A stretch of DNA of 49,728 nt from Amanita rubescens. Lineage: Eukaryota; Basidiomycota; Agaricomycetes; Agaricales; Amanitaceae. The stretch spans positions 1 through 49,728 of the forward strand of contig WION01000385.1 in assembly GCA_015039365.1 (NCBI GenBank), written 5' to 3'. Positions 7,718 through 49,728 of the stretch are shown here, in pieces (position 1 is the stretch's first letter; every line of letters starts with the position of its first letter). The notes under the pieces were generated by a model, which was not told where the DNA came from, did not search any database, and was given only the letters and a program-made list of their open reading frames with translations. A program made the position numbers and the translations under genes.

Positions 7718-7861
7718 GGTTTAACGGGTGTTTGGGGTTGTGTAGAGTTGTTGGTGAACTTGTGCAATATAAACTGCAACAAGGTAAAGGTATGTGAGGT
7801 GTGCTATCAGGGCGATAGCAAGGAAAATTCGTATGAATTCCGTGGTGAGTGGTGTGAAGAA

Positions 7862-18767: not shown

Positions 18768-19800
18768 CAATAAGAACATGGGTACTCTTATTATTGATCA
18801 ACATGCATACGCTAAAAAAGTTGTATCAAGATTTGGTTTAGAAAATTGTAAACCAACTCGTACACCTTTACCAACAGGATATATTCCAACTGCTGCTACA
18901 AAAGAATGTACAGCAGAAATGTGATCTTATTTTCAACAAATAATAGGATCATTATTATATCTTGCATTAGGAACAAGACCTGATATTACTTATCAAGTAA
19001 TATTAATGTCTCAGTTTTGTGCAAACCCAAATGAAGAACACATACAGAAAGCATTATACATAGTACGCTATGTTAATACCACAGTACAAACTAAAATAGT
19101 TTATAATGGTTTAAACAAAGAAGGCTTTGTAGCCTTTACTGATGCTGACTGGGGTGCTGACAAGATCACAAGAAAATCTGTCACTGGATATATAGTAAAA
19201 CTCGCAGGAGGAGCTATATCATGGGTTTCACGAAAACAAAAAGTAGTGGCACTGTCTTCAACTGAAGCAGAATACATGTCAATGTCTGATACATCAAGAC
19301 AAATAGTTTGGATTGAGTCACTTATGAGTGAACTTGATTTTCCAATTAAAACTATTTTCTTATGTTGTGACAACCAAGGAGCAATGTTCTTAGCCAGTAA
19401 CCCTGCACAAGAACATCGTTCAAAACATATTGATATAAGATTTCACTACATTAGAGAATGTGTCGAAAGTGAGAAAATTAAACTCACATACATTCCTACA
19501 AATGAACAAGTTGCGGATATAATGACCAAAAATCTACCATATTCAAAATTTGTAATATTCCGAATGAAGATGGGATTAATCCTAGATGATAGTCAAATAT
19601 CATTAACCAATCACATTAAGGCAACACAAACTTTTGCAAATTATATCAAAAGTAAAACCCTTAATAAGTCTCCAGGACAACATAGTAAAATATTTGAAAG
19701 AATTCAAGATCTTGAAGTGCGAGGATATCTTGAAGAAATCTTTAAATACTATGAAAGAGAAAATGATAAATTGACTACCCTTTTGAAAGCTAATAAATAA
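18768..19800 (+). pseudogene. Ty1/copia pol fragment: end of reverse transcriptase and RNase H
   Basis: The frame begins in the RT thumb (GTLIIDQHAYAKKV), has one in-frame TGA at 18922, and continues through YLALGTRPDITY. The copia RNase H follows (DADWGADKITRKSVTGYI, STEAEYMSMSD, then VADIMTKNLP). It ends with a TAA at 19798, 15 bases before the LTR. Upstream RT, integrase and gag are absent, removed at the junction with M1. Codon use is markedly AT-rich compared with the gypsy elements. Confidence 0.93.
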
Positions 19801-25942: not shown

Positions 25943-28900
25943 CCCATCTCCGTTGCATGTTTTCCAAATATTCCTTATCGAATTTCCCATCCTCCCATCC
26001 AAACAATTGCTTTGGCACGCTAGTAGTTGTATAATTTTGATACGCCCTGAATTGCAAGGTCTCCCCTTCGGGTATCTGTCGCGGAGCGCTGGGTTTCTTT
26101 TTATGAAACTGAGCTACCTTTTTACTAGCGTGTTCTAAGTTGTCTACCGGCTCCCACGTCGCCTCCTCATGAGGGTATCCTTTCCACTTTACCAAGTACT
26201 CCAACCGTCCTTTACCCCCCCTCTGTCGACTATCAACTACCTCTTCCACCTCAAACTCCGTATCTCCCTTCATGTTCTCCTCTTCCTTACGTCGTTTATC
26301 CCATTCCTTCTCTCCCGCTTGTTGTTTCGGAAACTGAGCGGGCACGTAGGGTTTCAACCATATCTCGTTGAATACGTTGTAAACTTTCCATGCCCCTGGT
26401 ATCCGAATTCGGTATGCTGACGCTCCCACCTTCTCGATAACCTCATAAGGTCCTACGAACTTTCCTCCTAACTTTTTTGTGGTTCGTAGGGTTGGAAGAT
26501 TCTGCGTACTCAGATATACCTTCTGCCCCTTTTTATACTCTCGCAAAGGTTGCTTTTTCACGTCGTATTGTTTTTTCATACTCTCCGCCGCTCGATTCAA
26601 CCCTTCCTTCGCCTTTTTACACGCCTCCGTTAGCCGTTCAATCCATTCGTCCACCGCCACTACTTTCCTTTCAATCGTCGGTTCTACTCCCTTTCGTGGA
26701 TGTCGTCCGTTGTTCAAAAAGAAAGGAGAGAATCCAGTTGCGGAATGAACTCGATCGTTATGACAGAATTGAGCCACCGCTAGCCAGTCGCTCCAATCAT
26801 TTTGTTGATGATTCACGAACATAGTGAGGAATTCCTTTACTTCTTGGTTTACTCTCTCCGTCTGTCCGTCCGTCTGTGGATGATAGGCCGTGGATGGATT
26901 GGCTTTTATCTTCAACACCTTGTATAATTCCTTCATGAACCTCGATACGAATTGCGGCCCTCGATCACTGATTACCTTCTCTGGTATCCCGTGTTCCCTG
27001 AATACATGGTCTCTGAATAACGTCGCCGTTCCTTGACTGGTCAATGTGGTATTCGTTGGTAGGAAGAACGCCTTTTTTGTAAAGCGATCGACGATCACCA
27101 AGACCGCATCATACCCTTTCGATTCAGGTAAAGGACCAATCATATCTATGGATATTATTCGCCACGGTCCTTCAGGAATTTCGTTTGGGTTCAAGGGAGC
27201 CACTCTTTTCTGTCTATCTGGTTTGACCGTTTGACAGACTCGACATCCTTTCACATATCTTTCTACATCCTTCCTCAATCCCGGCCACCAATAGTTTCGT
27301 AGTATCAGCTCGATCGTTTTATCGACTCCTGAATGTCCCCACGAATGGTGGATAGCCATCACTTCTTCCCTTAACTTCTTTATCACCGGCACGTACACTC
27401 GTTCTCGCCACGTCACCATTCCGTTATTCTGCACCTTCCACCCTTCTTCGTTTTGTTCTATCGCATTCTTTATTTTCTCTTCCCATTGTCTTTTATTCGC
27501 CTTTTTTATTTGTATTTCTATCTCCTGTAACCCTCCGTCTTTATTTATCGTTCGTACGAACATTTCCTCTTTCAATACTACTGTTCCTTCATTATCCGTT
27601 TCCCCTTTGTCGAAATCAGCCCTCCTAGATAACGCATCTGCCTTTGTGTTGGTTTTACCCGGTCGATGTTTCAACGTGAAGTTATACTCCTGTAAATCTA
27701 ACACCCATCGCGCTTGTCGTCGATTTATGTTCTGGGCCTTGCGGAAGTAGGTAAGGTTTTGATGGTCCGTCAAGATTTCGATGGTTTCTTCCGTTCCCTT
27801 CAAGTAGTGAGACCATTCGTATAACGCGTGCATTATTGCCAATAATTCTTTGTCATACACTTCGTAATTTCTCTCCGTTGGGTTTAACGATTTCGAAATA
27901 AATGCGATTGGTCGCCATGTTCCGTCCGGTTGTTGCTGGGATAGTACTGCTCCCATTGCGAAATCAGACGCGTCAGTTTCTACCCGATACTGTCCTTTGT
28001 CCGCCGGTATCGCTAGTACCACCTCTTCCCCTATCCTTATCTTCAACCCTTGGAACGCTTCTTCCTGCAATATCGTCCACATCCACTCCTCCTTTCCAGT
28101 CAGCTTCGTGAGGGCTTTGGCTATTTTCGAGAATCCTCGTACGAATCGTCGGTAAAAGTTGACAAAGCCTAAGAACTGTTGCACTTCTCTCTTGTTCTTA
28201 GGACGAGGCCAATCAAGTATCGCTTTCACCTTTGCTTTATCCATTCGTATTGAGTCATGTGATATAACCAATCCCAGAAATTCGATCGTGTCTTGGTCGA
28301 ACCAACACTTGTCCGCTTTCAACGACAACTTGTAACGTTCCAGTTTTTCCAATATTCGTTCAACATGTTGTCGATGTTTTTCTTTATCGTCCGAAAATAC
28401 AAGTATGTCGTCCATGTAAATTACCACCCATCCTTCCGCTATTTCTTCTCTAAACATATCGTTCATCATGGTCTGGAATGTCGCTGGGGAGTTCGTCAAC
28501 CCAAAAAACATTACTAACAGTTCGAATAATCCCCTATTCGTTCTGAACGCCGCTTTCCATTCATCTCCTTCTTTTATCCTTACGTTATTGTACCCCCATC
28601 GTATGTCCATCTTAGAGAATATTCGAGCATGACTGAGACGATCGATCAGTTCCGAAATTAACGGGAGTGGATAGCGGTTCTTTATCGTCATCTCGTTTAA
28701 TTTCCGATAATCCTGTACTGGTCTTAATTTCCCATCTTTTTTCTTTATAAAGAAGAAGGGTGATGCCATCGGGGATTTGCTCGATCGAATTCGTCCCGTA
28801 TCTAAGTTCTCTTTCAGGAACTCATCCAACTGTACTTGTTCAGGTCTGCTGAGTGGATATATCTTGCAGTCCAGCGGTTTAGATCCCGGTATCAATTCAA

Positions 28901-29942
28901 TGGCATGATCCCACGGACCGCGACTCGGCAACTCGTTGAACGTCTTCTTTTCAAAGACCTTTCGGTGACCCAAATAGTGAGCGGGGATCATCTCTTCCCA
29001 CGTTTGGTTTATTTGATTCTCCGCTGCTATTCTAGTGGCCGTCGTTTTGTGCGCTCTCATCCACACTCCTTCATTTTCGTCTCTCATTACTGCCAACAAC
29101 CGATCTCCTTCTTCCCATTCATGTCCACCGATCGCCTTATCTTCGCCGGTCTCCTCACCTTCAGTATCGTAATCGTCCTCGGCCACGTAGCAATGGCCTG
29201 GGCAATTTACCATCCGGAGTGAGTTTTCTTTCCAATTTACGCTTGGGTTATGGTATCTCAACCAGTCATGTCCCAAGAATACGTCGGTTTTTCCGAGCGT
29301 TGAAACGCCGAATTCGAACACCTCTTCGTGTGTTCCTATTCGTAATTTCAACTGTACCACTTCTTTTAACGTTCCTCCTAAGTTGGGTGTGCCGTCAGCG
29401 TTGAAGACGGGGATGGGTCAGTCTAGTCGTCGTGTATTAATTTTGTGTTTTTTTACAAACTCTTGATTTATACAAGACCCCGTGCATCCCGAGTCGATAA
29501 GGATATCCACCTTATTTCGTTCGTGTGTATCCAACATAGTCACCGTTCCTTCCATTACCATCTGGTTTTTCCCTTTCCCTTGTATGTGCTTCGGTTTCGT
29601 TTTTAAGTTATTGAGGCACCACAACGCGTCTTTTTCTGTCATTTTATTTATAGCTTTTACTGTTTCTCCGTTCGCCTCTTCATCTCGTGTCTGATGCACC
29701 CATTGTTTCAAACTTTCCACCGCTATTTTTTCTTCCTGATCCCACATCCTTCTCACCATCCATGGTCCTTGCCACGTTTTTAATTTCTTATTCGTTGCTC
29801 TTACGGGTTCGTTCCTCCATTTATGTTCGTGTCCTCTCAATTCATATAAGATGTCATCAATATTTAAATTCGAATCTTCGTATTTTACATCGAGAGGTTC
29901 CGTAACATATTTCTCAACCAGTGCCTTAGGAGGCACTTTCAC
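25851..29942 (-). pseudogene. Pol of element B: protease, RT, RNase H, integrase, chromodomain
   Basis: One frame with a single TGA at 29418-29420, where element A has arginine. Protease DSG (ILIDSGCTGS) and VFLGHDWL come first. RT follows with [15 protein letters not shown] and the catalytic YMDDILVFS (about 28410). RNase H (TDASDFAMGAVLSQ) lies near 27960 and the integrase HHCC (HHSWGHSGVDKT, CRVCQ) near 27320. The integrase core is next ([33 protein letters not shown]), and a chromodomain near 26180 (YLVKWKGYPHEEATWEP) would tether integration to chromatin. The last 30 codons (below 25943) are M2 sequence. It overlaps the gag end in a shifted frame, consistent with -1 frameshifting or a small indel. 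Confidence 0.93.
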
Positions 29943-31255
29943 TGGTTGTTCTGAAAACCCGTTTCCGTCGCCTGATCGGATTCATTCGTCTGGAATCCCA
30001 TCAGCGCCGCTATTTCTATCTTCTCTTGTTCCGTTGCTTTATCGATCCTTTCCTTCCACGTTACTTCTCTCACTTCTTCTCTCTTCTTCCTTGGTGCCCA
30101 GCAGTCTCTTGACAGGTGTCCGATCTTTCCGCAGTTGAAGCATTGTCCCGGGCCTCTTCTTCTATCAATCATCATGGCATTCGGATCTGTTCCTGACCCT
30201 GTTGCCACCGGTTGGGGTCGTGCAATTTGCGTGGGAATTGCTACCGGTGTTTGCACAGCCTGCGGTGTCGTCGGCGGTGTTTGTGCCTGATAGGGTGTGT
30301 ACCTCAGTCGGAATGTCGGTCTTTCTGCCCGAGTTATCCCATATAGCTTCTGTCCGTCTCTCCATGCTTTGTCTAACGCCGTCGCCCTATCATACCACAT
30401 TTGCAGGTCTCCTGCTGTTGCTCCGTCTCCCGGCGCTCCATTCTCTACTATCTTGATTCCTAACGGTGGGTTCAATCCTCCTTTGAATTGGGCAATTAAG
30501 GCAATTTCATTAAAGTCCGTTAGTTGCGCCCAACTCTTGAAGTCAATGATGTAGTCTTCCACCGGTCGTTTCCCCTGTTTCAATTCTCGGAGATGTCTAA
30601 TTGCTTCATCTCTTGTCTCCGTTGTCATGAAGAAGGCTAACGCTTTCGCTTCGAAGTCGTTCCAGTCATCAAATGGTGGTGCTCGTGTGAACGCTGCTAT
30701 TCCCGGTTCCGCCGCTCTCGGTTCCACTATTATCGCTCCTAATGGGGACGCCACTGCCACCACTTCCGCTCTTGGTTCCACTCCTGTCCTCAATTGCGCC
30801 CATGTATATCGCGACGATTGTGGCTTCTCCGTCATCTCTTGTACGAAGTCCATAAATTCTTGTAATTTCACTCCCGCCCAATTCTCCGCTCTGTTGGCCG
30901 TCCCTCCTTTGATCCTTTGTAGTGCTATAGCTATCATTTGGCTGTTGTTGAGTACTTCCGTCAATGAGAAGTACGCCCTCATCGATCTCAGCCAATGCGC
31001 TATCTTCTCCGGCTTCCCTTCGTACGCTTCGGGTGGATCTATCTTCATTTGGGGTCTGGGGGGACGGGGTGGGTCTCTGAACACCTCTCTAATCTCTCCT
31101 ATGGCCGCCGCTACTCTCGTACCCGCTTCTCTCTGTGCCGGCTCTGTCATCGTCGTCCATAAGGTTCGTACTGGTGCAGATGAGAAGGCTCCTATCAATG
31201 CTACCAGTAGTCCTAGGCACGCCGTGATCAACGCTTCCATCGGTGTGTAAGGCAT
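29939..31255 (-). CDS. Gag of element B
   Basis: 438 codons starting MPYTPMEALITACLGLLVAL about 345 bases inside the 5' LTR. After a hydrophobic N-terminus comes the Ty3-type capsid region (AFFMTTETRDEAIRHLRELK near residue 230). A single zinc knuckle, CFNCGKIGHLSRDC, lies near residue 390. It is organised like gag of element A but shares the frame with neither protease nor pol, which begin in an overlapping frame. The frame is intact, so capsid could be made. Confidence 0.92.
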   Translation of the reverse strand: MPYTPMEALITACLGLLVALIGAFSSAPVRTLWTTMTEPAQREAGTRVAAAIGEIREVFRDPPRPPRPQMKIDPPEAYEGKPEKIAHWLRSMRAYFSLTEVLNNSQMIAIALQRIKGGTANRAENWAGVKLQEFMDFVQEMTEKPQSSRYTWAQLRTGVEPRAEVVAVASPLGAIIVEPRAAEPGIAAFTRAPPFDDWNDFEAKALAFFMTTETRDEAIRHLRELKQGKRPVEDYIIDFKSWAQLTDFNEIALIAQFKGGLNPPLGIKIVENGAPGDGATAGDLQMWYDRATALDKAWRDGQKLYGITRAERPTFRLRYTPYQAQTPPTTPQAVQTPVAIPTQIARPQPVATGSGTDPNAMMIDRRRGPGQCFNCGKIGHLSRDCWAPRKKREEVREVTWKERIDKATEQEKIEIAALMGFQTNESDQATETGFQNNQ

Positions 31256-31586
31256 CTCTTCTTATCTTCACAGGGACACAGGGAGTTCTGAATACTGTGT
31301 GTTTGGTTTTTAGCTCGTCTTCTCCTATGGATCGAATAGGTACGCCTAAACTCGAACGTATCGTAGTTTTACCGGGACTACAACTCTGAGTTTAGAGTAA
31401 TCCCAGCCCTGTCTCGTTAACCCTCGAGTCCGGGTTTATCAAGCGGTGGTGGATACGCGCGATGTGCAGCGTGAGGAGGTAGATGTATCTGGAGTAGGCT
31501 ACTAGCGCTATCAAGCGCAGCAGTCGTCGAATTTCGTATCTGTCCGTCGTGGGCAACGACGAGCAGGCGAGTGTGGTAGTGTAAAG

Positions 31587-31839: not shown

Positions 31840-32003
31840 TATCCTGATCCTGGGTAGAAAAGAAAAAAAAGGCTGAAAAAAAAAGAATTGCGACTCGCGG
31901 GTGTCGGCGGAACGGTGGTAGAGTGAGCCGAGGTGCTGGCAGTGTCCGAAAGGCATAGGAGCGGCGGCGGACGGCTGTGGCAAGTGCAAGAGCGAATGAG
32001 CGG

Positions 32004-32381
32004 TGTAACGGATGGAATCCTGTTACAGTGTGCAGCATGCTCTGAAGCCTTCTGAAGATGTCCTCCACCATCCACCTTTGATCCGCTTTCCGTCTGCTTC
32101 TGTCCGCTTTCGATCCGCTTCGATCTGCTCCGCTCCGACGTGCGGGAATTCGTCGGAGTACGTCGGATGTGCGGGAATATGTCAGATTATGTCGGACCAC
32201 AAGTGCATGGTAAGCGCATGGTAGTTACTATAAGTACATGTCACATGTAGTTGTATACGATAGCTACGAACGAGAATCGGAGTCCCCTTCCCCTCAGATC
32301 AGCCTTAGCTTAAGTCTGTGCACTATTGTGCATGGCACCTGCAGTGCTGGGTACAACCCAGAGCACATTGCAGTTGTTACA
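32004..32381 (+). repeat. LTR of family F (378 bases)
   Basis: TGTAACGGATGG...GTTGTTACA, followed by the shared primer site at 32384. GCGG precedes it at 32000-32003. Its inverted near-copy lies at 33178-33557. The last bases differ between the two copies (GTTGTTACA versus GTGTTTCA), as expected if the copies exchanged ends in an inversion. Confidence 0.85.
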
Positions 32382-33177
32382 ACTGGAGCCCACCGCTCGG
32401 TCCAGCCTTTGGCCGCACTCAAGAAACCCTCGTTTTTCATTCACAAACAGCCCCGGAGGCGCTCATTCTACCTGGACGGCCCCACTGGCTCATTCCTATT
32501 CGCCGATACACCTACTGGTCACGCCAAAGTGCACTGCCACTGCATTTCAGCCCGCCAAGCACGCCGCATGACATCTACAGCCTTCCACAGCTTTATCGGA
32601 TCCCATCTGGCCCTTACTTCCGCGTCCCAGCCTCCAGACATGCACAATGCCGCTCACTGCTGCTACTTGCATCCGCTGAACCTGAACCGCCAGCCACGTC
32701 GTGCCCCAACTGCTCCGCCAAGTCGCCACTCGATGCCTACAGCCATCTGCAGTCTTATCGGATCCCATCTGATACATTGAAGTCCGCCGAGCCCACCGCA
32801 CGACATCTACACACTACCAAGGCCCTATCAGACCACAATCGGACTCCGTCGGGCCCCAGCCTCTGTATTCCAGCTCTCCGAGACACGTACAGTGCTACGC
32901 TAGCTGCTATCCGCCTCAGCAGCCCTGATCTACCAGCCCACACCCCGTCCAAGTGCTCGCACCCCGCCGTTCAATTCCCGCAGCCCTACCATGCCTTATC
33001 GGATCCCATTGGTCGCCATCGCAGCCCATCCAGCGACGCCTTGCAGCACGTGCCCACCTCATGCATCAGACACTATCGGAGCACGTTCCAGCCCTTTATT
33101 CCACGCCAACCTCACCCTTCATTATTCAGACGACATTCCCTGCTTCATCAACACGTGTAGACCACGCTCCCGCCCGC
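32382..33177 (+). other. Inverted 5' part of the D2 interior
   Basis: Nearly identical to D1 14473-15270 and in the same orientation as D1, whereas the rest of D2 is opposite. It ends with CCGC (33174-33177), the complement of GCGG at 32000-32003. Open frames here are shared with D1 but carry no domain I recognise. Confidence 0.85.
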
Positions 33178-33557
33178 TGAAACACTGCAATGTGCTCTGG
33201 GTTGTACTACCCAGCACTGCAGGTGCCATGCACAATAGTGCACAGACTTAAGCTAAGGCTGATCTGAGGGGAAGGGGACTCCGATTCTCGTTTGTAGCTA
33301 TTGTATACAACTACATGTGACATGTACTTATAGTAACTACCATGCGCTTACCATGCACTTGTGGTCCGACATAATCCGACATATTCCCACACATCCGACG
33401 TACTCCGACGAATTCCCGCACATCGGAGCGGAGCAGATCGAAGCAGATCGAAAGCGGACGGAAGCAGACGGAAAGCGGATCAAAGGTGGATGGTGGAGGA
33501 CATCTTCAGAAGGCTTCAGAGCATGCTGCACACTGTAACAGGATTCCATCCGTTACA
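33178..33557 (-). repeat. LTR of family F, inverted copy (380 bases)
   Basis: The reverse complement of 32004-32381 apart from a few bases. It is followed by CCGT (33558-33561), which pairs with CCGT at 22053-22056 and not with its own left flank. Confidence 0.85.
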
Positions 33558-33561
33558 CCGT

Positions 33562-34560
33562 GCATTTGCCCCAGCCTTCTGGTGATGAGCGTCGCACGGC
33601 TTTCGGCGACGATGAGTAATGTCTGCTGACAAATCGACTCTCTTTGTCTCAAGACCGACACCGGGGTTCAGATTGCAGTGCCTGCTACATTGCCCTTGCC
33701 TTCCCTTAAGCTCGTAGCGCATGCAGCGGTTCGACCTTGAGTGTATCACCTGACTCCCCAACTCGGAGTGTCTTCTTGCTGGAATTTCAGGGTCCGTGGT
33801 GTTGGAATATGATGTTAGCAGTTGAAGGTACCTGAATACCAAGCGTTGTATGTTATTTTCAGTCATTCCTAATACAATCTCCACACAGTTGCTGAGCATA
33901 CATATATTATTGCATTTCTTAATATATATCATGGACATTGTAAGGCAGTGTACAAGTGAATGTGGCCTCGGACCATGCCACGCAATGTGGTGGCCCACGT
34001 CTCAAGTTTACATTGCTCATTCGTTGAGGCTGGGCCGGGTTGCCGTTTCGTGCAATCTTCACTTCCGCTGCCTTCGGACTCTCGGGAGGTGCTGTGGTTT
34101 GATCTTATTAGTCCGGTTACTCACATGCGCAGTGTACTATTATTCAATTTTAAAAACCTGTCAGCATTATGCATACCTGGATGCTGCATGAGTGATTATG
34201 GCTGGTTGCTTGCAAGCATGTGGTGTGTTACTTGTTGAATGGGCTACAAAGACTCGTGTTGGGATGTTAGTGCATATATTCTGTTGCATACTAATTATTT
34301 TCAAGGTCAAGTTATTCCTGACTTAATTTAAAGCCTGAAACCAAATCATTCATGTCTATTCATGTCAGAGATGGTCATAATGGCAGGATGCATGTGATGG
34401 AAACCAGAAAGAAGAAACTGTAATTGTGTAAATCAATAGAAGCCACAAAGCATGTGGACAGGAGGGTAGCTAGGACCAGCATCATGTGTATGTATGGCAT
34501 GTTACAAGTGCTACCCTGAATTTAGATTGGATTCTGGTATTGTAAGTGAAGTACATACCA
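33562..34560. other. Region between D2 and the GTPase gene; no gene recognised
   Basis: Short frames only, on both strands. It is 3' of the GTPase gene and may hold its 3' untranslated region. Before D2 inserted it was joined to 22056. Confidence 0.5.
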
Positions 34561-37500
34561 TCAAATGTAGATCATAACCTGTTTGTACAGAAATTCAGCC
34601 AATTCTTCATGACCACATTGCACAGACTCAGAAGTAATATGAGTCTTCAGTTTCTGCACATAGTCATGTTTCCTGAATTGTTCTAAAGCCTCCATGATTG
34701 ATTGCAAATATGGCCTCTTTATCCAAAATGACAGCTTGGCAATGATGTTAATTGCTTAGAAGTATTAGCATAAGTGCAGCATAGTGAATAAGATGGAATT
34801 AAATTACCAACTACCACTTGGCATGCTGTAGGCTTATTGTGGTAATGTTAATACTTTTAAAAGGGGAAAGGGAAACTCATACAGTTGCTGAAAAATTCTC
34901 TGGTTGATCTCCAAACAGGGAGAAAAGTTCAGGCTGACCATGACTATTAGAAGGGAAACTTCCTAGCAAAATTGGACTTACACACTAGCATGCAAATTAA
35001 TATCAAGATTCATATCTTCCACAATCTTATCACTCACCTGCAAAGTCAGGATGGTCATAAGAATTGATAGAATGTTCCAGGAGACAATATGCCCACAATC
35101 TATAGGTAATAATAACATCAGGAAAAAATGGACAAGCTGCATTCTCACTTGCTGTATTCATATATTTATTTGAGATTGAGACTTGGAGAAAAATGCAATG
35201 TCACTCACAGCCTGATAGTTATAGGAGAAGATGTAGTGAGGTAGGCTTTAAGAAAAATAGTGACACCCACTTGCTGTTGGTTACAAGAGAAAATGTAATG
35301 TGACTGGCATTCAGAAGGATGTACACTGCCACTCACTGCCTGTTGGTCATAGGTGGTGTGATAAGACTGCTGTTCAAAATATCACTTACTTCCTGAGTTC
35401 ATTTGGCAAGGTAATAAGACTTCCTTGGAGAAAATGTGCAATATGCAATGTTACCCACTTCCTGTTGATGAGAGATGTGGTGAGAATCTTTCAGGAAATT
35501 CAAATGTTATTCACAATCTGTGAGTCATAGGAGAATATATATATGTTGAGGCTACCTTTCAGAAATTGCAATGTGACTCACAAACTATTAGCCATAAGAA
35601 TGTATGATGAGCTGCAATTTAGAAATGTGTTTTGTCACTCACTTGCTGTAGGAGAATATGTGATGAGATGATTGACTTTCAGAAAATTACCATGTCACCC
35701 ACTTGCTGTTGGTTATAGGAGAAGGAGAAGATACAATAAGACTGGCTTTGAAAAAGAATGATAACACTCACTCGCTGTTCATTGTGTATGAAAAAGTAAT
35801 GTGGCTTTTAAATTCAAGTAAATATGTAATGTCACTCACTTGCTGTTCATTACATGAGTGGTGGGATGAAACTGCTGGTCAGACTCAAATGTGCAATGTA
35901 CTTACTTGCTGTTGATCATGGAAGAAGCTGTGATGAGTCTCCCTTGAGAAAGACTGTGACATCACTCACTATCTGTTCATCATGTAATGAGAGTAGCTTT
36001 CAGATAATGTACAATATTGCTCACTTGCTGCCAATTTTAAGAGAAAATGTGATGAGAGTGTCTCACATGAATGTAATGTTACTACTCACTCGCTGTTGAT
36101 CAAAGATAAGAAAAGATATGATCAGATTGCATTGCATAGGCTGTGGTATCACTCACTGCTCTCTGTGGGTTATAGAATGCATTTGTGATTATACTGCATT
36201 TCAAAAATGTGTAATACTAATCACATACTCGCTAAGTTGGCCACAGAGAATGTGATGACATTGCCTTTCAGAAATATGTACAATATTACTCACTCGCTGT
36301 CAGTCATATGTACAAGCAGATGTCATAAGACTGCTTTCAGAAGAATGTGTAGAATTACTCACTTCCTGTTAGGAAATATGATAACATTGAAACACCATAT
36401 GATGTACAACATATAATCACTTACTCGCTGTCATTTGTCATACATATAAGGTAATGTGATTGGAGTGCATTTTGGAGAAATTACAATGCCACTCACTCTC
36501 TATTGGTCATAGATAACTGGACAGTATTGAACACTGAGTAATGTCACTCACTCCCTGTTGGTCATAAGGATGTAATGTCATTGTTTTTCAGAAAACATTG
36601 AAATTGAACTTACAAACTGTTCACAAGCATTTGGGCATGACATGTTCAAGTGGGTGAATTACAAAACAAGGAGTCATATCACTCACTCTCTGTTGCTCAT
36701 AAGATGTGGTTAAATCCAGATGATGGTGAATCTGAGTATCACTCACATACTATTGACCATAAAGTTATGATGAGAATTGCAGAAAATGGATGTCGTTTAC
36801 TTTCTGTTGACCATGATGTAAGTTACTTCATGAAATCTCAAGCATACTTACTTTTTGCTAATTGGATGGGATCAAACTACCTGGAAAAGTGAATAACAGC
36901 CTCCTACATTCTGCAAAGTTGTTAGTTCTCTGAAAAAATACAGTACCTCATAACCCACATCCTGTAGGTGTGAATGAGATTCATAGAGTCAGTTGGTTGA
37001 CAATATCTCTCACTCTCTGTTGATGAAGAAGTGAGACTGCCCAGCAGGAAATAACATAATGTCACACACATCCTATTTTATGCAGTGAGACATATGGACT
37101 ATGTGATGCTTAAATATATGTGTAGACTCACTGCCTGTTTGTCAAAGAATTATTATGTGATGAGATTTCTGGGCAGAAAAAGGGTCCAATAAAGTTACTG
37201 ACAAACTGCATGCAACAAAATGAGAGTGATAAGACAGTCTGGCTCTTAAATCTCACAAACTTTGATCACAGAAAGAGGTGATGAGACCTTATAATGGGGG
37301 AAGAGTCATTTACTCACTTCCTGTTATGCCAACTTGATGTGATAAACATATTGCAAAAAAATGCATAATCACTCACTCTCTAAATGTAAGTACTATGTGA
37401 TAAGTTTACCTGGCTGAAGACTGGGCAGTGCTACTCACTTCCTGTTGACCATGGGATAGAATGTCATGCATCTGCCTGGCAGAAAAAATGCAGTGCTACT

Positions 37501-39671
37501 GACACCCTGGTTGTCAAAGGTGAGATATGATAAGACTGTCTGTTAAAAATAGCCCTACATCCTGGTGATTATTAAGTAAGATCTAATAAACCATGAAACA
37601 GAATGCATCCAGGCATCACTCACTGCCTGTTATTATGGGATGAAAGTCACAAATAAAGTTCAAAAACAGGAACTGCCACTCACTTCCTATATTAAATGTC
37701 ATTTAAGGTTTCTTTAGATAAAAGTACAATACTACCAACTTTCTGTGTTCATAGTACAGATCAGATGTAAGAATATGACAGTGTTGCTCACCTTCTGTAA
37801 GCAGGTGTGGCAAGGTGTGACTCCATGGTTCAAAGAAAGGATGCTGCACCACTCACTGCCTGTTGATTATAGGATGGAATGTGACAAGACTGTTATAAAG
37901 GTAACTTCACCCACTTTCTATTGATTATTCAATGAAGCATGAAAATGCCTTCCACATGTTGGAGTAAGATATCACTAACATCCTGTTGATCATGTGACAA
38001 AACTGTTGAGCAGCAGACTAAAGCATCACTCACAAACTGTTGCCATGAGAAAGATGCCAAAACCATAACCAGTCCAATAGTGACTATGTACTTACCCACT
38101 GTCACCCATATCATCAGACTTGATCACAGAAAAGTGTGGTAATATAACTCACTTGTATCTCATCCTGTTGTTTAGCAGGCATATAGACATGGCTGATCAG
38201 ACCACAATAAAGGAAATGTAGTTTCACTTGCATCCTGCTGCATATTGTTGCAAGCATTGATTATTTCATATGTAATACCTACCTGTCTGGTCACCTGTCA
38301 TTCAATTCAATTTTCTCTTCCTGATATGCAGCATTAGAGAAATACAACACCCAAAAGTGTGGAAATTTTGTGAGAACCATGACAACAACATCATCCCATG
38401 AACAATTGTCAGCCAAAACATGTCTGAAAACAGTTAAGTTTTTAAAGTAATATTTAGATCTGAATCATGTGATCCTCACTGAAGTGCAGATTTAACACAG
38501 AGATCAAGGTTATTCTTCTGTGTTGAGACAAACAGTTGATGGATACTGTTATCATCTATTGCATCAGCTGTCTTCTGGGTTAATTCAGGACAGTTCTTCT
38601 CTGGTAGATCCAGATCTATGAAATTACTGTACATATCTCTGCTTCCAAAAAAGAGTTTTCCAATGCTCTTACCTTCTAATCTGACATATGCCTTGGGAGG
38701 ATATTTAGCATGCAAGACTTTAGGAAGGTAGACTGTCTGAAAAATGCTTTCAGCTTTCTCCCTGGCCATTTTCCACTTATCATCATTCTCAATGTCTGGC
38801 AAGTTTGCATATTCATTGATGATTTGACCATCAAATTTGGTAAAGATGGTCACCAAAGGAACTGCAGAAAAGGCATTTAACAGTCAGTACAAGGTAAATT
38901 TTGCACATGTTTTAAATATTCAGAAAAGTTAAAACCAATCATGATGTGTATGTATTTATAAACATTCTGAGAGATGAATCTCTTACCTTTGCCTCTCCCT
39001 TTATCAAAGAACTCAAGTTCTGCAGGTTGTATGGGACGAGGATCATCCATGGGTATGCAGTACCTGGAAGGGGCTTGCTGATCAGTCAGTTGTGTAAGAT
39101 TGGAAATATGTACCAAATTGCATGCAACTGGTTTTTCAGTTCAGCTTCTGTGGATCTCTTTTCAATGAACTCCCAAGCAACCTCCAATTCCTCAATTGCA
39201 CCAGCTTCAAAACCCTGAGAGTCATGGAAGATAAAATTACTTCCAGGGTAAGTAATCTGATGTTCAATATTATGCAGGCCTCTCTATCATCATTGCATAT
39301 CAAAAACTCCTACATTATCATTTTACCCACCTCAATTGATGGTATTAAATGAATGCTTGAACATGGTAGCTGGTCACCTGCAAGAAACCAAATGTTTAGA
39401 GAATGGACAAAGTTCAGCTTGTCTTACCATTCATGTCATATATGATGGGCTCTGTTTCTTTGCCTACACCACAAACCTTCTCAAGGATGGTTGTCTTGCC
39501 AGCATTAGCCCTCCCTATGACAAGAACACGAAAATGTGTACATCTGTATCTTTCCCTGAGCACTACTATTTTTGCCCCACTGTCATTATCTAATAGTATG
39601 AACTGATGAGAATTTGACAAAGCCAGATAATTTTGCATACTCAGTGGAGGTGCATCAGCAGCATCTGCCAT
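34561..39671 (-). CDS. P-loop GTPase gene with an array of single-codon micro-exons
   Basis: The ATG at 39671-39669 starts MADAADAPPLSMQNYLALSN. Ordinary exons are 39671-39428, 39377-39331, 39256-39114, 39063-38987, 38861-38673, 38615-38480 and 38423-38295. They encode the G-domain: P-loop GRANAGKTT (residues 53-61), DSQG in FHDSQGFEAG (about 109-112), TKFD (about 178-181) and LFVSTQKNNLDLC. Exon 8 is 7 or 10 bases (38228-38234/37, tandem CAG acceptor) and exon 9 is 12 bases (38164-38153). Then come 51 micro-exons, two short exons (34887-34883, 34825-34818) and a last exon 34754-34561 ending in TGA. The assembled frame is 1353 bases with no stop, so 450 residues. Residues about 330-382 come from the micro-exons. 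The family is widespread in agaricomycetes; its role is not established. The end could differ if a donor near 34580 is used. Confidence 0.82.
34982..38098 (-). other. Micro-exon array: 51 exons of 3 or 6 bases
   Basis: On the minus strand the pattern is acceptor AG, then exactly 3 bases, then a GT donor (about half exactly GTGAGT), repeated 51 times. Micro-exon low coordinates include 38096, 38034, 37980, 37915, 37857, 37792, 37740, 37684, 37624, 37559, 37504, 37439, 37377, 37318, 37257, 37203, 37132, 37070, 37014, 36959, 36908, 36852, 36801, 36747, 36687, 36614, 36552, 36497, 36425, 36363, 36294, 36229, 36157, 36090, 36025, 35970, 35906, 35840, 35772, 35703, 35643, 35582, 35515, 35459, 35390, 35337, 35271, 35209, 35149, 35097 and 34982. 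Those at 36852 and 36157 are 6 bases. Spacings run 51-73 apart from the last pair. The 49 triplets use 18 codons, mainly CAA 7, GAA 6, CGA 5, TTT 5, AGA 4, GAT 4, GCA 4, AAA 3. None is a stop. Confidence 0.8.
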
Positions 39672-41669: not shown

Positions 41670-44600
41670 ATGAGCTGTAATTTCGGTGAAAGCGTCAGTC
41701 CCGTCGCTGCGATCCAAGCGATCCTACATGACTACCCCTTCTCTGCAAGCATCCTTCGAGAACTGTTGCAGAACTCGGATGATGCAAAGGCTACAAAGCA
41801 GGTTTGTGTTGCGTCACTCAGAAAGCAGATGTTAACAAAGGCATAGATTTTTGTTCTCGACATGGGGAAAGACCCTGCGTTATTGGCGTACAATAATTCT
41901 CAGTTTCAAGAAGTAGATTGGGAAGCTATCCAAACCATCCATACGTCGGCCAAAAGAGCAGATACCTCGTGAATTTATCCATTTCCGCAATCAATCACTG
42001 CTGACATCTTCTTTAGTAAAATTGGAAAATACGGCGTAGGCTTTAGAGCTTGTTATCACGTACGTTGATCCATCTTGAGCCTCATTATGGACACTGAAGC
42101 GCATATAGATCACAGATGGACCTCAAGTTCTTTCTGGGTCGTCGTTTGCCATTCTTGATCCCCTCCATTCTGGCGGCATGAAAATTAACTACAATGAATT
42201 CAAAAAATCAGACCATCGCAAATGTTTTGATTTTTTCTCCAACATGTCTACATCTTCTTCTTTTGGCGGCACGGTCATCAGATTACCACTTCGGTCGAGG
42301 CCGAGCGAACTAAGCCAACGCGTCGTACTCGCACAAGAGCTGGATAAGATGATCAGCGATTACATCAACGAAGAATTGGACATTTCTCTTCTATTCCTCG
42401 ACAACCTCAGGATCATTGAAATTTGGAAGGTCCATGATGCAAGCAAGACGTGCTTAGCTACATGGAGCAAATCCGAGAGGAGGGCTGAACGTCAAAGCAA
42501 AGAATCTTCACTTTCCATTTACGACTCGGTCCTATCTGATGGTCATGCGAACTTCTCTTGGCGGATTATTCAGACCCAGAATGCGGAAGAAGAGGCCAAG
42601 TCTCGTCTCGCAGCGCAGGTTGGCGGCGACGCTGTAGATCTCATACTCAAAAAACACAAATTACGTCCTGACGTGCGCCTTGCTTATCCATTGATCACCA
42701 ACGAGCACATCTCTGGTCGCCTCTTTACCTTTTTGCCACTCCCATCTATCACGGATTTCCCTGTCCATATACATGCGCTATTCGCATTAACTTCTTCAAG
42801 ACAGAGCTTGCGCAACCCGAACGAGACTGGAACTGTAGCTGGATCCGACAACGAGTACGCATATGTCTCCATTTTGCCGCGATCGGGTGCTGAAGGCCTT
42901 CATTTAGTGTATTAATCAAATGGAACAGTCTGCTATTCGATTACTATATCCCTCAAGGTTGGGGTCGCCTTTTGAAAACATTGGCCGAAGACACTGTATG
43001 CAAGGATATTTTCAGTTCTTGGCCTCCGTACTGCTCGTCGATAACGTCTGGTGATGGCCTATACTGGCAAAATATTCTCCAGGCAACGTTGAAGTGTGCC
43101 ATCCAGTCTGGTTTAACGATATGGCCGAAAGTAACAGAGACGGATACGACCACATATGTCGACTTGAAGTCATCCCTTGTCGTAGCTAGAGACAAAGTTC
43201 ATTCGGATGTGCTTATCGCTTTGGCTCGGGTTGGTCTAACGTTGGTCCAAATGCCCGAAACCCATATGAAGTTCCTCGACGACTCTATAAGCAAGTTAAC
43301 TCCACATGTCGCCCGGGACCAAATCGAGCGTCGTAGCTTGGGATTCAACAGTTTGTCTCAGAACCAAAGGAGGGTTTTATGCGAGTACTTTCTCTCTGAG
43401 AAGGACTTTAGCAGTATATATGGCCTTCCCCTCTTCCCCACCCTGGATGGATCGTATATATCCCTTGACAATAGGGACGCGACAAGTCGACGCTACATCG
43501 CCTTAACCACCGATGAAGTTGATGTGTTCAGAGTGTCAGCGGGCGATGCTATATCTCTAGATGAATTGCCACGCGAAGTGGCAGTGTTGGTACGGGAAAA
43601 AGGCACGACTCAGGCCAATATCGATCTGCTATCCCCGCAGTCTGCCGTTGCTTACTTGTCAAGTGAACCACCACCGCTCAGCGATCAGCGATTGACGAAG
43701 TTCTGGACGTGGTTGGAGAAATGGCAACAACGTGATCAAACAATGGGGCTCCTGAAATCCAACACCGTGCTTCATCTCGTCCCGACGTCGAAAGGCCCAC
43801 AGCTTGTCTCTTCTCCTGCGTTTCCGGCTCCAGGTGTTCCACTGTTTGAGAAGCTAGGGCTTGCCTTTGTCAGCTCTGTACTTCCGAGTGCAGTAGTTCA
43901 ATTTTTGAATAACCACGGGGTCGTCAAAGACACTGATGATATGAACCATTTTTTAGCGGCTATCAATTTGGCGACATTGCAGACTCTCGGCGATGACGAA
44001 GCAAAGTCGGTATTCGACCATATCTCCACTTGTTACAGGTCACTTTCTAGTGATAACTTGACCAAGTTGAAGAAGCTACCCGTTTTCCCTGTGCTGGTTC
44101 CATGCGCAAACTTGGTCTCTCCTAGCTTAGTGCCAAACACGAATGTGCAATCTCTGGTCAAATGCAATACCTCTGTAAAGTGGCGTACCATCGTCGGCCT
44201 TAGCGTCAAGGGAATCTCGCCTATGTCGCTTATTCCTTTGATGGACAACATAAACTTCCTCGACAAGTCTTCCTTTAGCAATCCGTCATGTTCTCTATTG
44301 CAGGCACTACAGCTACCGCTCCTCAGCGACGAAGATATATTGCTGCTTGCCCTTGGTCAATTCTCTTCACAGCCAAAGTCTCTTCGAGCCCTATTCGTCT
44401 CCTACGTCAGACAAAATCACAGATGGACCAATAGCGTTACGTCAGTCCTCCGGAAGACACAGTTTATTCACTCGTCAGACGGTACCTTGCGATCGCCAAT
44501 CGAAGTTATTGATCCCAACTCGAGGCTTAAAAGTCTTTTTCTCCCCGCTTCGAGCGGCTCGCTTATCCCGACCATGGAGGATGATTACGATCGCGAGATA

Positions 44601-47600
44601 ATCGATGATCTTCGGGACCTGGAGATGATGAAGGCATCTTGTCGTTAGATATAGTGCAAGAACGAATTTGGTACATCTCGGCAAATCACACGTCGCCTGA
44701 GGCACTAGTCGTTGCTCGATCCTTGCTTTCGCTCATGAATGATCCAAGTTTCGTTTGTGCCAGTTTTCCTATCGACCGCTCCTTGCGCTGGTTACCGACG
44801 GAGGCTGGTCTTGTCAGCTTGAAAGAATGCATTGATTGGGGACGTCGTGATGCTGACCTGTTCGACGAAGTTCTCGCCACTCTTGACAAATCTTTTACAA
44901 TCACACCCTCTTTCCGGGCTCTGCTAGGCTGGGATAAATCTCTGCCTTTGGATGTCCTTACGAAACAGTTGGACCGTGTTCTTGGAAAACCAAATCCTGA
45001 TACGCAATATCGCAAAATCAACGAGATTATAAGAGAACTTGCGACTCGCGAGCTCGGAGATGCAGACGTTAAAGCTGTACACGCAGCTACCGCTGGACGG
45101 CCTTGGGTACCCACCAAATCTGGCACGCTCGCGCTGCCCCTCCGTGCCGTGTTCACAAGTGTAGTTGATTCGAGTTGCTTTCACGAAATTTGCTTCTCGA
45201 AGGCGCAAAAGCAAATCTACATGTTCCTTGTGAAGATGGGATGCAACGAACGGTATGTTATTATTCTGACTAGGAACGGAGTCATTGACAATCGAGTCAG
45301 GCCTTCGGCGTCAGCGATTATCAGCGAACTTAATGCATTACGCAAAAATGCGGGAACGGATAGAAGCATTGTTCAGCAAGCGGTGCAATTATTGGAAATG
45401 TTACCTGATTCAATAACAGACAAGGAACGTGGCTCTCTGTTAGTTCCAACAGACACGGGGGATCTCGTGTCATTACGCACTGGCGTATGTTATTACAAAG
45501 GACCAGTCACTGGCGTAGACGATGGAAAGATCATCGCTCATCACCTTATCACTGAAAAACTTGCAAAGAAGATTGGGATCCAATACCTGGGCGTCGACGA
45601 AGCACTGAACGACATCGACTTGGGCGGGAACCCTATCACCCTCATCCGTAATACTTTGAGGCAATACGATCCGAAACAGTTCTTTACTGAATTTATCGCG
45701 AATGCATCCGACGCAGGTGCTAAGCGGTTCAGCATCCTCGTAGACGATCATGAAGGTCCAACGGAGCATCTCCTCTCAGAGGAACTAGCAGTCTTTCAGA
45801 AGGCATCTCTGGTCATATACAACGATGGGATCTTTTCTAAAAAAGATTTCAGAGGAATATTGCAGACTGGAATTGGCGGAAAGAGGGGCAGGACTGGCGT
45901 AATTGGCCACTTTGGATTAGGCGCACTTTCAATGTTTCACTTTACGGAGGTAAGATGGGGTTTGGCTGATATTCCGAAGACTAACACTTCTTCTCTAGCT
46001 GGCTATGATTGTTTCGGGCGATCAAGTCCTTTTCATGAGTCCGTCAAAGCAAAACTTGTCGTTCTGCGGGAAACACTCTGTTCTGCTTCCTTTGCAAAGC
46101 GTGAAAAAGTAATTGCTGTCCGGGAGATATTTTCTACGTTTTTAATTTTTATTTCAGGTTATATCCAGATCATCTTAAGCCGTTGGTTGGATTGTTCGGA
46201 TTTGATCTTTCTTCCACTAAATCATACCAAGGGGTTAGCTTCGTTTTCTTCAACGTCGTTCACTGTGCTGACCATTTCCTAGACTCTATTTAGACTGCCG
46301 CTCAGGAACGAATCGCATTCAAGTCAAGATCCTGTTTCTACGACGCCTTGGAGTGTAACACTGGCCCAAGAGATGATTCTGACCGAGTTCGATAAAGTGG
46401 CGTACAAATCGCTTCTGTTCACTCGGCTGGGATGTATAGAGGTGCAAAAACGGCAGAATGGCAATATTGAACCTCTTCGCGCCATCAAAAGTGTCCGTGT
46501 ACCAAACGATCCTACCTCCGGTGATTCATTCAAATTTGAAACGGTGACTTTTGAATCGCCAAAACTGCAAGTACCCAAATGGCTAGTCGTGACGATAGAC
46601 GTCAATGTCCCTGAAAAATTCAAGGCAGGGCTTGCAAAGAAATATGACATGCATCACCTTCTCCCGATATGCATTGCCGCAACGCTGGACAGTGACCAAG
46701 CTCAGAAATTGGAATATAATCTGTTCTGCACTTTACCGTTGCCCGTCACCACGCCTTTACTGGCCCACATCTCCGCTCCGCTGATCCTAGAACAGGATAG
46801 GCGAAATGTACGCATCGACAGTGACCGAACCGAGATAGAATCCGAATATAACCAATGGTTATTGTCGTCAGAACTCCCTCGCTCATACCTTTGCTTGCTC
46901 GAGATGTTATTGCGGATTCAAGGCACCAATATTGCGTGGTGGCCTGGGGCACACAACATCGATGTCAATTATCCGAGTCGGATTTTTATGAATGCTTTTT
47001 GGAGTTCCGAAATGCTTAAAGAGAGTTCGAGACGCGTTTTCGCAAGCAAATACAATCCTACATCCCTCCTGAGCCCAGACGAGGTCGTATTATACGCGAA
47101 TAAGGCAAATGAATACACGGCATGCAGCTTCACGCTCCCTAAAGTCCTATCTGCTATTCAACCCCCGAATATTGCGGAGCTCCCTGTTCAATTGTTCGAT
47201 TACGCTAAAAAGGCGTTACGTATCGTCGATGGTCCGTTTCTCAAAACACTTTTGGAACATGCCGATCCGCCCAGCCTACGTTTGTCCGTGGACGAGATGA
47301 ACAGTTTATTGTGGTACCTATCGAAGAAGATACAGTTGGATGGCCTACCACTGATCTTGCTTGAGGATGGATCCTGTGCGAAGATCCGCTCGCAATTCAC
47401 TCAAGCATATTATATAGTAGGGGAAGAACAAAACGCTGCCTACCACCTCTTCCGACCCAATCGCCTCGTACACAGGAAGTTCACCGCATCTAAAGACCTT
47501 CTGAAAGTTGAAGTGAATGTATCACGCCTAGATAACGCTGGAGTAGCCGAACTTGTCGAAGATCATATTGGGCCTGATCACGAACGGTCTGGGGATGAAA

Positions 47601-49728
47601 AGTACCAAGCTTGGGTTGCCGCATTTTGGGACGCTAGGCTGAACGTCTCTCTGGAAAGCATTTCACATCTTCCACTAATTCGAACAATTCAGCCATCCAA
47701 ATTCATCTCCATCAGTAGGATGAACGACCCTTCCGTTACTATTGTCGATGCGGAAAGGAGCACTGAAGACTTCGACTATGCTATCCTGCAGAAACTTGGA
47801 ATGACGATCGTTCTCAGAAGACGAATACCCGAAAAATCACCAGCTCTAGAGAAGAAGAAGCAAGCACCATATAAAAGCTTCTTAGAATATGTGCAGAAAA
47901 ACGAAGCGAAAGGGCTCGACGAGATCTTGAGTCTCAAATCGAACGATCGCGATGAGCTGGCCCGTTGGGTTCGGTTAAAGTTTTCTCAGACCCCTCAGAA
48001 CTTGGCGGACATTGCCCGTAAGCTACCTGTATGGCCTATTCGGCAGCGTTTCAAGAAGCCTCCTCGCCTTGGTGCCCTGAAGGATGCCATTGTCCTTCCT
48101 GCCACTTTGCCATGCGACAATCTACTACCTTTTATAGATCGTCCAGTCATCAACTGGGACAAAGGTATGGAGGGCGTTATGAAAGACGAGTACAGCGCAA
48201 AGGCCGTCACCGAACTTTTGCGTGTTTCACCTGGCTTTATTATTCGTTCTCCTACCGAACGAGCGGCGTACAAGCAATTCGTAAAGGCCTTTATCAAGTT
48301 CAAGAGGGTCGAGGGGTATTCGCTATTAGTACCTAACGAAGAAGGGGTTTTAACTCCAGTCGAGAGCCTGTTCGAATGCCATGAACTCTTTTCAGCAGCC
48401 TTTAAGGCGTCCCCAGAACGTTTTCTTCCGGTCGACTTCCAAGACATAGCGGAGTTGTTGGGAGACTACGGTTTGAAACTGAGGAATCGTCTTGATCTTG
48501 CCATGTTCATAGAATGTGCGAAAGCATTTGATCAAGACAACGATGATGACGACGACGATGATAGCGGGTGCGAAGCTGATAACCACGACAAACGTAGGAG
48601 GAGCGAAGTATTATATCGTTATTTCAACAACCTTTCCCTCTCTCCGAATGACGTTGGTCGCTGCCCTGAACTGGATGGACTCAAATTTATTCCGAGGGAC
48701 TTTACCCGCAGGCCGGGCTATGAAGGGATGAACGTAAAGAGAAACAAGCAGGATGACATACTCTCACCCAGTAAAATCACGCTCACCGCATACGAACCTA
48801 TATGTTGGAGCCAGAGGGGTTGTGTCGCAACTCAACCCAATTTAACTTTGCGCGGCACTTATCAGAGCTTGGGTAAACCAACTGGAAAAGAAGTTGCAAG
48901 TGTCATTTCTTTGTTCGATACCACAAATTCTCATTTGTTTATAAACAGGTGAAGCATCTCAAAGTTCTTGTTGAACTTGGCAAAAAGTACGGTCACCGTT
49001 CGGCGCTGCTCTCAGACCTCAAAGCGACCTACAAGTGGCTGAACGAGAACGTAGACGAAATCCTCGCTGACATCAAGAACGAAATCGGAGATCGATATTT
49101 CTCAATGTTGATAACCCTGAATCTGATCCCTGGGCAGAGCAGTGGCATGCTGCTTCGAACCTTGTGAAGGATCTGCAAGACGTTGGGACATGCACGACGT
49201 GAAAGGTTTTCTTCGGAATTACGACAATCTGTTAAAAGCTGCTGGCGTCAGGACGATCCAGAAAGTGAAGGCTGAGCCTGTAGCAGCCCAGGACAGGACG
49301 GTGTTTCACCGAAGCCGATTTCGTGAGATGCGTGAACGAGGATTTGAAGTCAATGTCACTTTTAAAGCCATGGACAATGAACACCAAATCGGTCGTGCAC
49401 ACAAAGCTTGGTTGAGCCTGAATAGCGAGTATTTTTGGCGCAAATTCGTTGTACTTCCAGACTTTCCGGGGGATCCTGGTAAACGCGCGCAAGTGCCAGT
49501 GGACGTGTCAGATTGCTCGAGTCTTTGTGTTAAGGAAACCATCGGTAAGCATTGAGTCAAAGATTTCTTCTTCACTAAATTACCAACGCAGATTGGATTT
49601 ACGTCGGCGAGCTACCCGAGTCGATCAAGACTAATCCAAAGAGTGACGAAGAGTCAGAAACGAAACTTGATCTAGCCCTTGGCATGCTTAATCTCGCTCA
49701 TCGTTGGGAGATCGCCGAGTTGCATCTC
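41670..49728 (+). CDS. Sacsin-like protein with two HATPase modules and a BTB-like C-terminus (partial, with frame breaks)
   Basis: The ATG at 41670 starts MSCNFGESVSPVAAIQAIL. Exons are 41670-41801, 41847-41968, 42017-42059, 42109-42854, 42908-45949, 45999-46108, 46158-46233, 46283-48892, 48949-49544 and 49592 onward. Module 1 has the ATP-binding N box ELLQNSDDAKAT and the lid KYGVGFRACYHITDG. Module 2 (from about 45640) has FFTEFIANASDAGAKR, LVIYNDGIFSKKDF and GHFGLGALSMFHF, then TLFRLPLRN. An acidic Asp run lies near 48540. The end (49300 onward, VNVTFKAMD, DWIYVGELPES, LAHRWEIAELHL) resembles a BTB/POZ domain. Sacsin modules are Hsp90-like ATPases; a chaperone or adaptor role is inference. 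One-base frame changes are needed near 44640, 49105 and 49175, so it may be a pseudogene. It runs off the right edge. Confidence 0.85.

Follow-up and report, generated by a model that had tools for sequence, protein, structure and literature searches.

Fifty tiny exons, very probably joined in frame into a variable loop, in a gene of a GTPase family of Amanita rubescens

Can part of a protein be put together from dozens of exons that are each one codon long? This question is raised by a GTPase gene on the minus strand of contig WION01000385.1 of the ectomycorrhizal mushroom Amanita rubescens. The window, by which we mean the whole stretch of 49,728 nucleotides that was analysed, is one (C316) of the 786 contigs of the 75.7 Mb genome. 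A preliminary description had pointed to a chain of AG-NNN-GT junctions in the middle of this gene, and the chain is indeed present. Taken as a whole, we regard it as highly probable that 50 tiny exons are joined in frame here and encode a variable loop, and that young arrays of the same kind are diversified. The joining is supported because contigs of relatives that lack the introns hold the joined codons in order. Two results go beyond the preliminary description: the array belongs to a gene family, and the young arrays of this family consist of hypervariable codons between homogenised introns.

The gene model comprises 64 exons with a frame of 1338 nt, that is 445 codons and a stop, which is the sole one and stands at the end. 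It contains 49 single-codon exons, 48 in the array and one (GAT) upstream of it. The features of the gene are given below with the evidence for them; P numbers denote proteins compared with the model.

34561..39671, minus strand: whole GTPase gene as modelled; its first 300 residues agree with the contig protein P0001 at 299 of 300 positions
38351..39671, minus strand: span of the eight G-domain exons (gene model, exon searches, comparison with P0001)
39671-39641, 39589-39428, 39377-39331 and 39283-39114, minus strand: G-domain exons 1-4
39063-38987, 38861-38673, 38615-38480 and 38423-38351, minus strand: G-domain exons 5-8
38283..38294, minus strand: 12-base exon encoding VTRQ (gene model and P0001)
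38232..38234, minus strand: first single-codon exon, GAT, with a GC donor (gene model; the intron 3' of it is retained in P0001)
38153..38164, minus strand: 12-base exon encoding DEIQ (gene model; homologous NEIK stretch in P0002)
35097..38098, minus strand: array of 50 micro-exons, 48 of 3 bases and two of 6 bases (aligns with P0002)
36857-36852 and 36162-36157, minus strand: the two 6-base array exons
35037..35038, minus strand: putative zero-base junction AG|GTGAGT, resembling a recursive splice site, inside the last 163-base interval (read from the sequence)
34982..34984, minus strand: possible 51st one-codon exon, TGT
34883..34933, minus strand: 51-base exon PELFSLFGDQPENFSAT (exon search, contigs of relatives, gene model)
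34808..34832, minus strand: 25-base exon encoding PTACQVVV (contigs of relatives, gene model)
34561..34754, minus strand: 194-base last exon with the stop codon, encoding the helical C-terminal domain (exon search, predicted structure, gene model)

The stretch GRANAGKT, which we take to be the P-loop, is encoded by the second G-domain exon. The joined peptide of the 50 micro-exons is WFDKAKKEADGEREFFADRDNQKKYRFGRRERRRARQIQQRQQFIEEAQAQI. Between the first exon of the chain and the 51-base exon there are 50 intervals, of 48-70 nt except for the last one with 163 nt, and the donors of the array introns are mostly GTGAGT-like. As had been stated, the interval lengths follow no multiple-of-three rule (16/14/20 modulo 3), and the coding run is in frame: it stays open to the terminal stop in the window, and the frame is kept in 24 loci and genome-wide. 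The earlier count of 51 micro-exons is upheld for 50 of them. The 51st, TGT, lies in the 163-nt interval behind the zero-base junction and is plausible as a one-codon exon, but not certain; some relatives have one residue at this position, reading I-L-P (P0004, P0005, P0011) or I-F-G (P0094). Short exons just upstream of the array had been given as 7/10 and 12 bases, for which the model reads 12, 3 and 12 bases, the 3-base exon being the one with the GC donor. Downstream, the 194-base exon was right, but the proposed exons of 5 and 8 bases had to be replaced by those of 51 (34933-34883) and 25 bases (34832-34808), and the peptide PELFSLFG...FSATPTACQV encoded by these two has a close match in contigs of relatives.

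Searching proteins with the joined window model gave 1246 matches, of which 120 were listed; 25 of the latter come from sources of the Joint Genome Institute (JGI), and 21 of these 25 were read. The JGI contigs are about 1.0-1.9 kb long, and from the introns that they lack and those that they retain we take them to be RNA-derived sequences (cDNA) of relatives. A leader-like joined stretch is found in 8 of the 21 proteins (P0002, P0004, P0005, P0009, P0011, P0032, P0094 and P0098), and in five of the eight (P0004, P0005, P0011, P0094 and P0098) it continues into the C-terminal domain. As far as the codon GAT, P0001 follows the window model with nine introns removed. The intron before this first single-codon exon is removed, and the next window intron is then read into; the first of the nine junctions entered the gene model from P0001, and the other eight were already in the search query. 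P0002 has 56 codons joined and a tail that resembles a translated array-type intron (best E 0.015), and P0009 has 58 codons joined and a tail corresponding to the intron behind the last micro-exon of A. rubescens paralogs (best E 0.001). With listed exon identities of at most 90%, P0002, P0009 and P0032 are foreign to this genome.

The order of the codons was compared with the same contigs. The joined peptides of seven stretches (the window, the loci L012, L018, L031 and L035 and two of L029) each beat 20000 order-shuffles, which were scored against the best-matching contig only; those of L012, L018 and L031 share one leader type and are therefore not independent. The codons YGAWDRQEYDEELRKQHEELADKAAADE of L035 align to P0002, the spliced part of which stops after its own AADE. 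A protein search with the joined sequence had been proposed beforehand, and it found the joined codons, in order, in the intronless contigs of relatives. Serial joining as claimed is supported to this extent, while the stepwise removal of the introns is something we infer.

The models read from NCBI stop at the array or close to it, and P0053 bypasses it. In this annotated A. rubescens paralog the G domain is followed by the downstream exon, with no array residues in between.

A comparison of the window array with the paralog L009 (C529) shows a constraint on splice sites and codons. The introns differ at 114 of 2505 sites and by 30 indel events, in contrast to 0 of 200 sites at AG/GT, 6 of 200 at donor positions +3 to +6 and 1 of 153 in codons; one exon, AGAGCA in one paralog and AGA in the other, changed its length in frame. 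The figures for the paralog L010 are nearly the same (introns 117/2508, AG/GT 0/200, donor +3 to +6 6/200, codons 1/153). Judged by sequence comparison, the window array is of an old kind, in which introns drift and codons are conserved. A frame-blind splice-chain parser gave the array a score of 614, with 41 introns in the chain. None of 40 dinucleotide-preserving shuffles exceeded 27, and none of 24 pieces taken from elsewhere in the window exceeded 24. The score of the array is partly circular because the site weights were trained on the window array; exon length was untrained, and the other loci are independent of the training. Wider intron limits were used for the score, as the narrower ones parsed the window chain only in part.

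When 401 bases of the array served as DNA query, 215 matches were found in the genome; a single G-domain exon yielded 245 candidates, of which 150 were scored matches, and the assembly may contain both haplotypes. Twenty array loci were taken first, followed by GTPase loci absent from the array-search list. Eighteen of the 20 array loci have G-domain exons before the array and the 51-base and last exons after it; the exceptions, L020 without the downstream exons and L027 without most exons, are both cut by contig ends. The loci picked by GTPase similarity carry arrays in six of six cases (L029, L030, L031, L032, L033 and L034/L035). The idea that GTPase paralogs outside the array-search list are array-free was rejected, since L029, L030 and L031 all carry arrays.

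The frame is kept throughout this family. A locus parser that treats exon lengths of 0-14 bases alike was applied to 24 loci, the window included and L021 left out. The small exons have 3 nt in 1125 of 1188 cases and a multiple of 3 in 1141, with up to 85 exons parsed in one locus, and the introns are distributed 787/218/207 modulo 3. The exact motif CCAACAG-N(k)-GTGAGTGACATT occurs genome-wide 1214 times with k=3, and 13, 6, 0 and 9 times with k=2, 4, 5 and 6, respectively; the reversed-pattern control gave 0 at every k. Of the 19 matches with k=2 or 4, 13 are on C749, four on C13 and one each on C254 and C599. C749 is the locus L021, the last exon of which is frameshifted. In L021, 15 of 48 distal junctions deviate in length; in 16 other loci, which do not include L026, it is 9 of 589 (Fisher p 1e-12), and three of these nine are one-base calls in L016 that another parser run reads as 3 bases. 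The paralog comparison, the 24 loci, the genome-wide counts and L021 together demonstrate, at the sequence level, a constraint on frame and splice sites.

The distal array of L021 shows junctions of 0, 1, 2 and 4 bases between intact introns. If it is not an assembly error, this locus may offer a natural view of junction change that is unselected.

The young arrays are built differently from the window array. They consist of 65-base units, each a 62-base intron and a triplet, and this intron is present in 791 copies within 3 mismatches in the genome. Over 492 regular units, none from L021 and none with more than 2 differences from the consensus, the mean entropy is 0.062 bits per intron site versus 1.64, 1.73 and 1.31 at the triplet positions, the intron figure being lowered by the choice of units by intron similarity. 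Within 12 loci, with units picked in the same way, 56.3% of triplet sites differ versus 1.3% of intron sites (0.563 versus 0.0129). The comparison of L012 with L024 is free of unit choice. The GTPase bodies differ at 38 of 1311 sites, the leader introns at 13 of 789 and the leader codon bases at 1 of 42, while the distal introns (units 17-37) differ at 2 of 1302 sites versus 40 of 69 codon bases (units 15-37), so that 18 of the 23 distal codons are different.

Closer pairs of loci show the same. Over about 8.9 kb, L013 has 10 mismatches to L015 (99.7% identity). Four of them lie in two neighbouring codons, which makes 4 of 153 codon sites versus 6 mismatches in the remaining sequence of about 8.8 kb. 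The arrays of L017 and L018 show one substitution in 5257 aligned intron sites; apart from a 7-base indel, one of the two has a complete 65-base unit more, which would be expected of a change of copy number by one codon. In L018 blocks of units look tandemly duplicated together with their codons. A trace of unit duplication in neighbouring codons is weak: identical neighbours exceed the shuffle mean in 12 of 13 loci with p between 0.02 and 0.59, and p is below 0.05 only in L026, whose alignment crosses a non-array stretch.

The variable triplets are nevertheless not free. The 435 distal triplets of 12 loci comprise 39 types and 2 stops (one in L025, one in a misaligned stretch of L026) versus 21.5 stops expected from the position-wise composition. 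Triplets end in A or T in 453 of the 492 regular units. Arginine is written CGA 87 times, AGA once, AGG twice and CGG once in the triplets, and AGA 45, AGG 27 and CGA 7 times in the G-domain exons. Both biases would be accounted for by splice-site pressure on the last base of the exon.

What does the array encode? The window protein scores 19.7 bits against Pfam MMR_HSR1, below the gathering cut-off of 21.9, some homologues carry PF01926, and Rfam gave 0 matches. In the AlphaFold model of P0005 the residues 295-357 have pLDDT values below 50 and lie between confidently modelled G and C-terminal domains; the array tract is thus predicted to be a disordered loop. The array is likely to encode a helix and then an exposed variable loop between the G domain and the helical C-terminal domain. 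Irga6, Irgb10 and GM4951 have 10-13% identity and a TM-score of at most 0.37 by query length, and on the G domain alone septins and EngB come within about 1 Z of the immunity-related GTPases. The young runs probably serve to vary the predicted loop.

A mechanism can be proposed for such a gene. Each 48-70-base intron would be recognised and removed by intron definition. Removal of intron n would bring its codon up against the donor of intron n+1, and splicing is therefore likely to run stepwise along the array in a manner similar to recursive splicing. In young arrays the identical introns may undergo unequal exchange and gene conversion, by which codon units would be added, dropped and swapped in frame, and the 3-base junctions would mutate or be selected far faster than the introns, by mutation, selection or both. 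The varied loop might in turn vary a putative recognition of a non-self or immunity-like kind, which is the part of the proposal that we hold least firmly.

The hypervariable junctions allow two accounts. It is quite possible, although we would not call it probable, that codon diversity results from selection alone, with introns homogenised by unequal exchange or gene conversion and the junction being no mutational hot spot. PMC2873952 describes the fungal hnwd repeat genes as very polymorphic and under concerted evolution, and the swaps at neighbouring junctions (L013/L014 and L013/L015) look like conversion tracts. The depletion of stops among the distal triplets shows that selection acts on the codons. 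However, the 44-fold contrast between codons and introns is extreme for selection alone, and in the frame-broken L021 length changes affect 15 of 48 junctions of 3 bases versus 17 of 49 introns of 62 bases. This gathering at the junctions leans to a mutational component, with assembly error possible at that locus. The other account is a generator of diversity that works codon by codon, in which the junctions would be hot spots of programmed or tolerated cutting and rejoining and yield germline variation amino acid by amino acid in a receptor-like GTPase family, the introns would act as recombination platform and guard of the frame, and combinatorial splicing could add variants, as any subset of exons may be omitted without a frameshift. 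We put this joint proposal forward tentatively and think it rather doubtful.

Other explanations deny that the units arose, or are used, as exons of this kind. We consider it improbable that a variable tract existed first and that introners, now seen as the identical introns, recently entered between its codons. The number of near-identical copies would suit it, and introner insertion can add or remove adjoining codons according to parts of PMC9860276. It requires, however, a phase-0 insertion at every codon. It also has to face the unit blocks of L018 that look duplicated together with their codons, the same anatomy with diverged introns in L029, L030, L031 and L035, and the location of the copies: among the 100 listed of the 791, 99 are in array loci on C13, C79 and C82 and one is on C12. 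A decoy that is mostly removed as one long intron, its codons being rarely joined, is very improbable. Skipping of the whole array would keep the frame because the flanking exons are in phase 0 and all array exons are multiples of 3. The NCBI models and P0053 could be read in this way, and P0071 looks array-skipped, though out of frame. Against it stand the eight JGI proteins with the leader-like joined stretch and the constraint on AG, GT and codons in the window array. A non-coding minisatellite with a variable 3-base spacer within one long intron is hardly credible. Its units would be tandem and mutually similar as observed; yet by the motif counts the spacer is held to 3 or 6 bases, 2 or 4 being very rare and 5 absent, stops are depleted, and the joined peptides match contigs of relatives. 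A non-coding satellite was rejected on these frame counts (1125 of 1188 exons with 3 nt, and the spacer lengths). Reading through the array was rejected as well, since a 65-base unit is not a multiple of 3 and the frame shifts with each unit.

Several observations weigh against in-frame joining and the diversification of the young arrays. That the JGI contigs are cDNA is what we infer, and the retained-intron matches of the tails of P0002 and P0009 are short. No transcript spanning any A. rubescens array was found, a search with a young-array tail returning none; when the C-terminal portion of P0005 was used to look for such transcripts, P0005 and P0004 were the sole hits. The tail of P0071 corresponds to the 51-base exon downstream but is read in a different frame, which would fit an array that was skipped or mis-spliced. 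In the leader units of young paralogs codons differ by 6.5%, hardly less than introns with 7.4% (13 loci). In L019 (C298) a G-domain exon is broken into two overlapping matches, with normal array junctions, and L011 (C13) has several 2- and 4-base junctions though its other exons match, be it by recent damage, assembly error or a tolerated frameshift. The array of L025 contains a TGA triplet, and poly-Gly and VVGVVGVV tracts in some arrays are unlike a conserved protein.

Known systems each share a trait with these arrays. The MEG genes of schistosomes are described in passages of PMC10526429 as one protein family in which very short exons, most of them divisible by three, follow one another in large number. 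They have 10-20 exons of 6-81 bp (also given as 3-81), mostly 15 bp, per gene, introns of 0.1-5 kb and secreted products. Symmetric exons in series are common to both (1141 of 1188 here). In contrast to MEG genes, the exons here are single codons, up to 85 of them parsed in one locus, the introns have mostly 50-70 bases, the products are GTPases, and young arrays combine a constant intron with a variable codon; exons of about 15 bp with long introns, the mark of MEG genes, are not found here. Introners and propagating stwintrons are near-identical introns in many copies, as parts of PMC9860276 and PMC12403724 report. The young introns likewise are similar over their full width and numerous, but unlike introners and stwintrons the copies are tandem, one codon apart and confined to one gene family as far as examined. 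In Podospora, according to PMC2873952, the hnwd allorecognition genes (het-d/e/r) encode NTPases and contain a repeat array that evolves in concert, in which units are gained and lost and new variants arise. The arrays described here work alike, with variable positions in a repeat array under concerted evolution, without being members: the hnwd repeats are coding WD-repeat units, whereas here the repeat is the intron and the variable part a single codon, and Pfam gave no family shared with hnwd or STAND proteins, its only hit for the window protein being MMR_HSR1 below the cut-off. To the immunity-related GTPases the identity and TM-scores are low.

Recursive splice sites usually add no exon and serve long introns. 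What the array has in common with them is the new donor that would abut the joint after each step, and the one zero-base junction at 35038/35037; unlike them, each step here adds a codon, and the introns are short. MEG genes, introners, stwintrons, hnwd genes and recursive splicing all lack one-codon exons between homogenised introns. No report of this combination was found in the open-access literature searched, subscription papers and preprints being outside its scope. In the same open-access literature, phrases for single-codon exons and microexon arrays led to human RPS24 only and nothing joined Amanita with microexons.

The remainder of the window contains several other features. An element with 362-base inverted arms, 97% complementary and 854 bases apart, lies close downstream of the 3' end of the GTPase gene (31992-33569), and its inner open reading frame (ORF; 32309-33160) has long stretches in common with ORFs at 14304-15554. 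By eye, long ORFs at 25851-31261 (minus strand) have the look of a Ty3/gypsy-type element (reverse transcriptase, integrase, chromodomain-like), a 704-aa ORF at 5606-7720 (minus strand) with a CCHC zinc-knuckle-like stretch appears gag-like, and an ORF at 18925-19800 (plus strand) resembles the RNase H end of a copia-type element. A series of long ORFs at 42109-48952 (plus strand) looks, again by eye, like a very large sacsin/HSP90-like gene with introns.

If RNA confirms the joining, the arrays would mark a limit of how finely the spliceosome can work, with about fifty to ninety faithful one-codon steps. They would also represent a way to vary a protein without damage to the frame, in which the introns are identical for recombination and the single codons differ. 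Since the NCBI models read stop at the array or close to it and P0053 bypasses it, most of the variable part has probably escaped annotation in this family, for which no fewer than 150 scored G-domain exon matches were obtained. The arrays make testable how exons too small for binding on both sides are recognised, and whether mushrooms may possess a recognition repertoire at the level of the codon.

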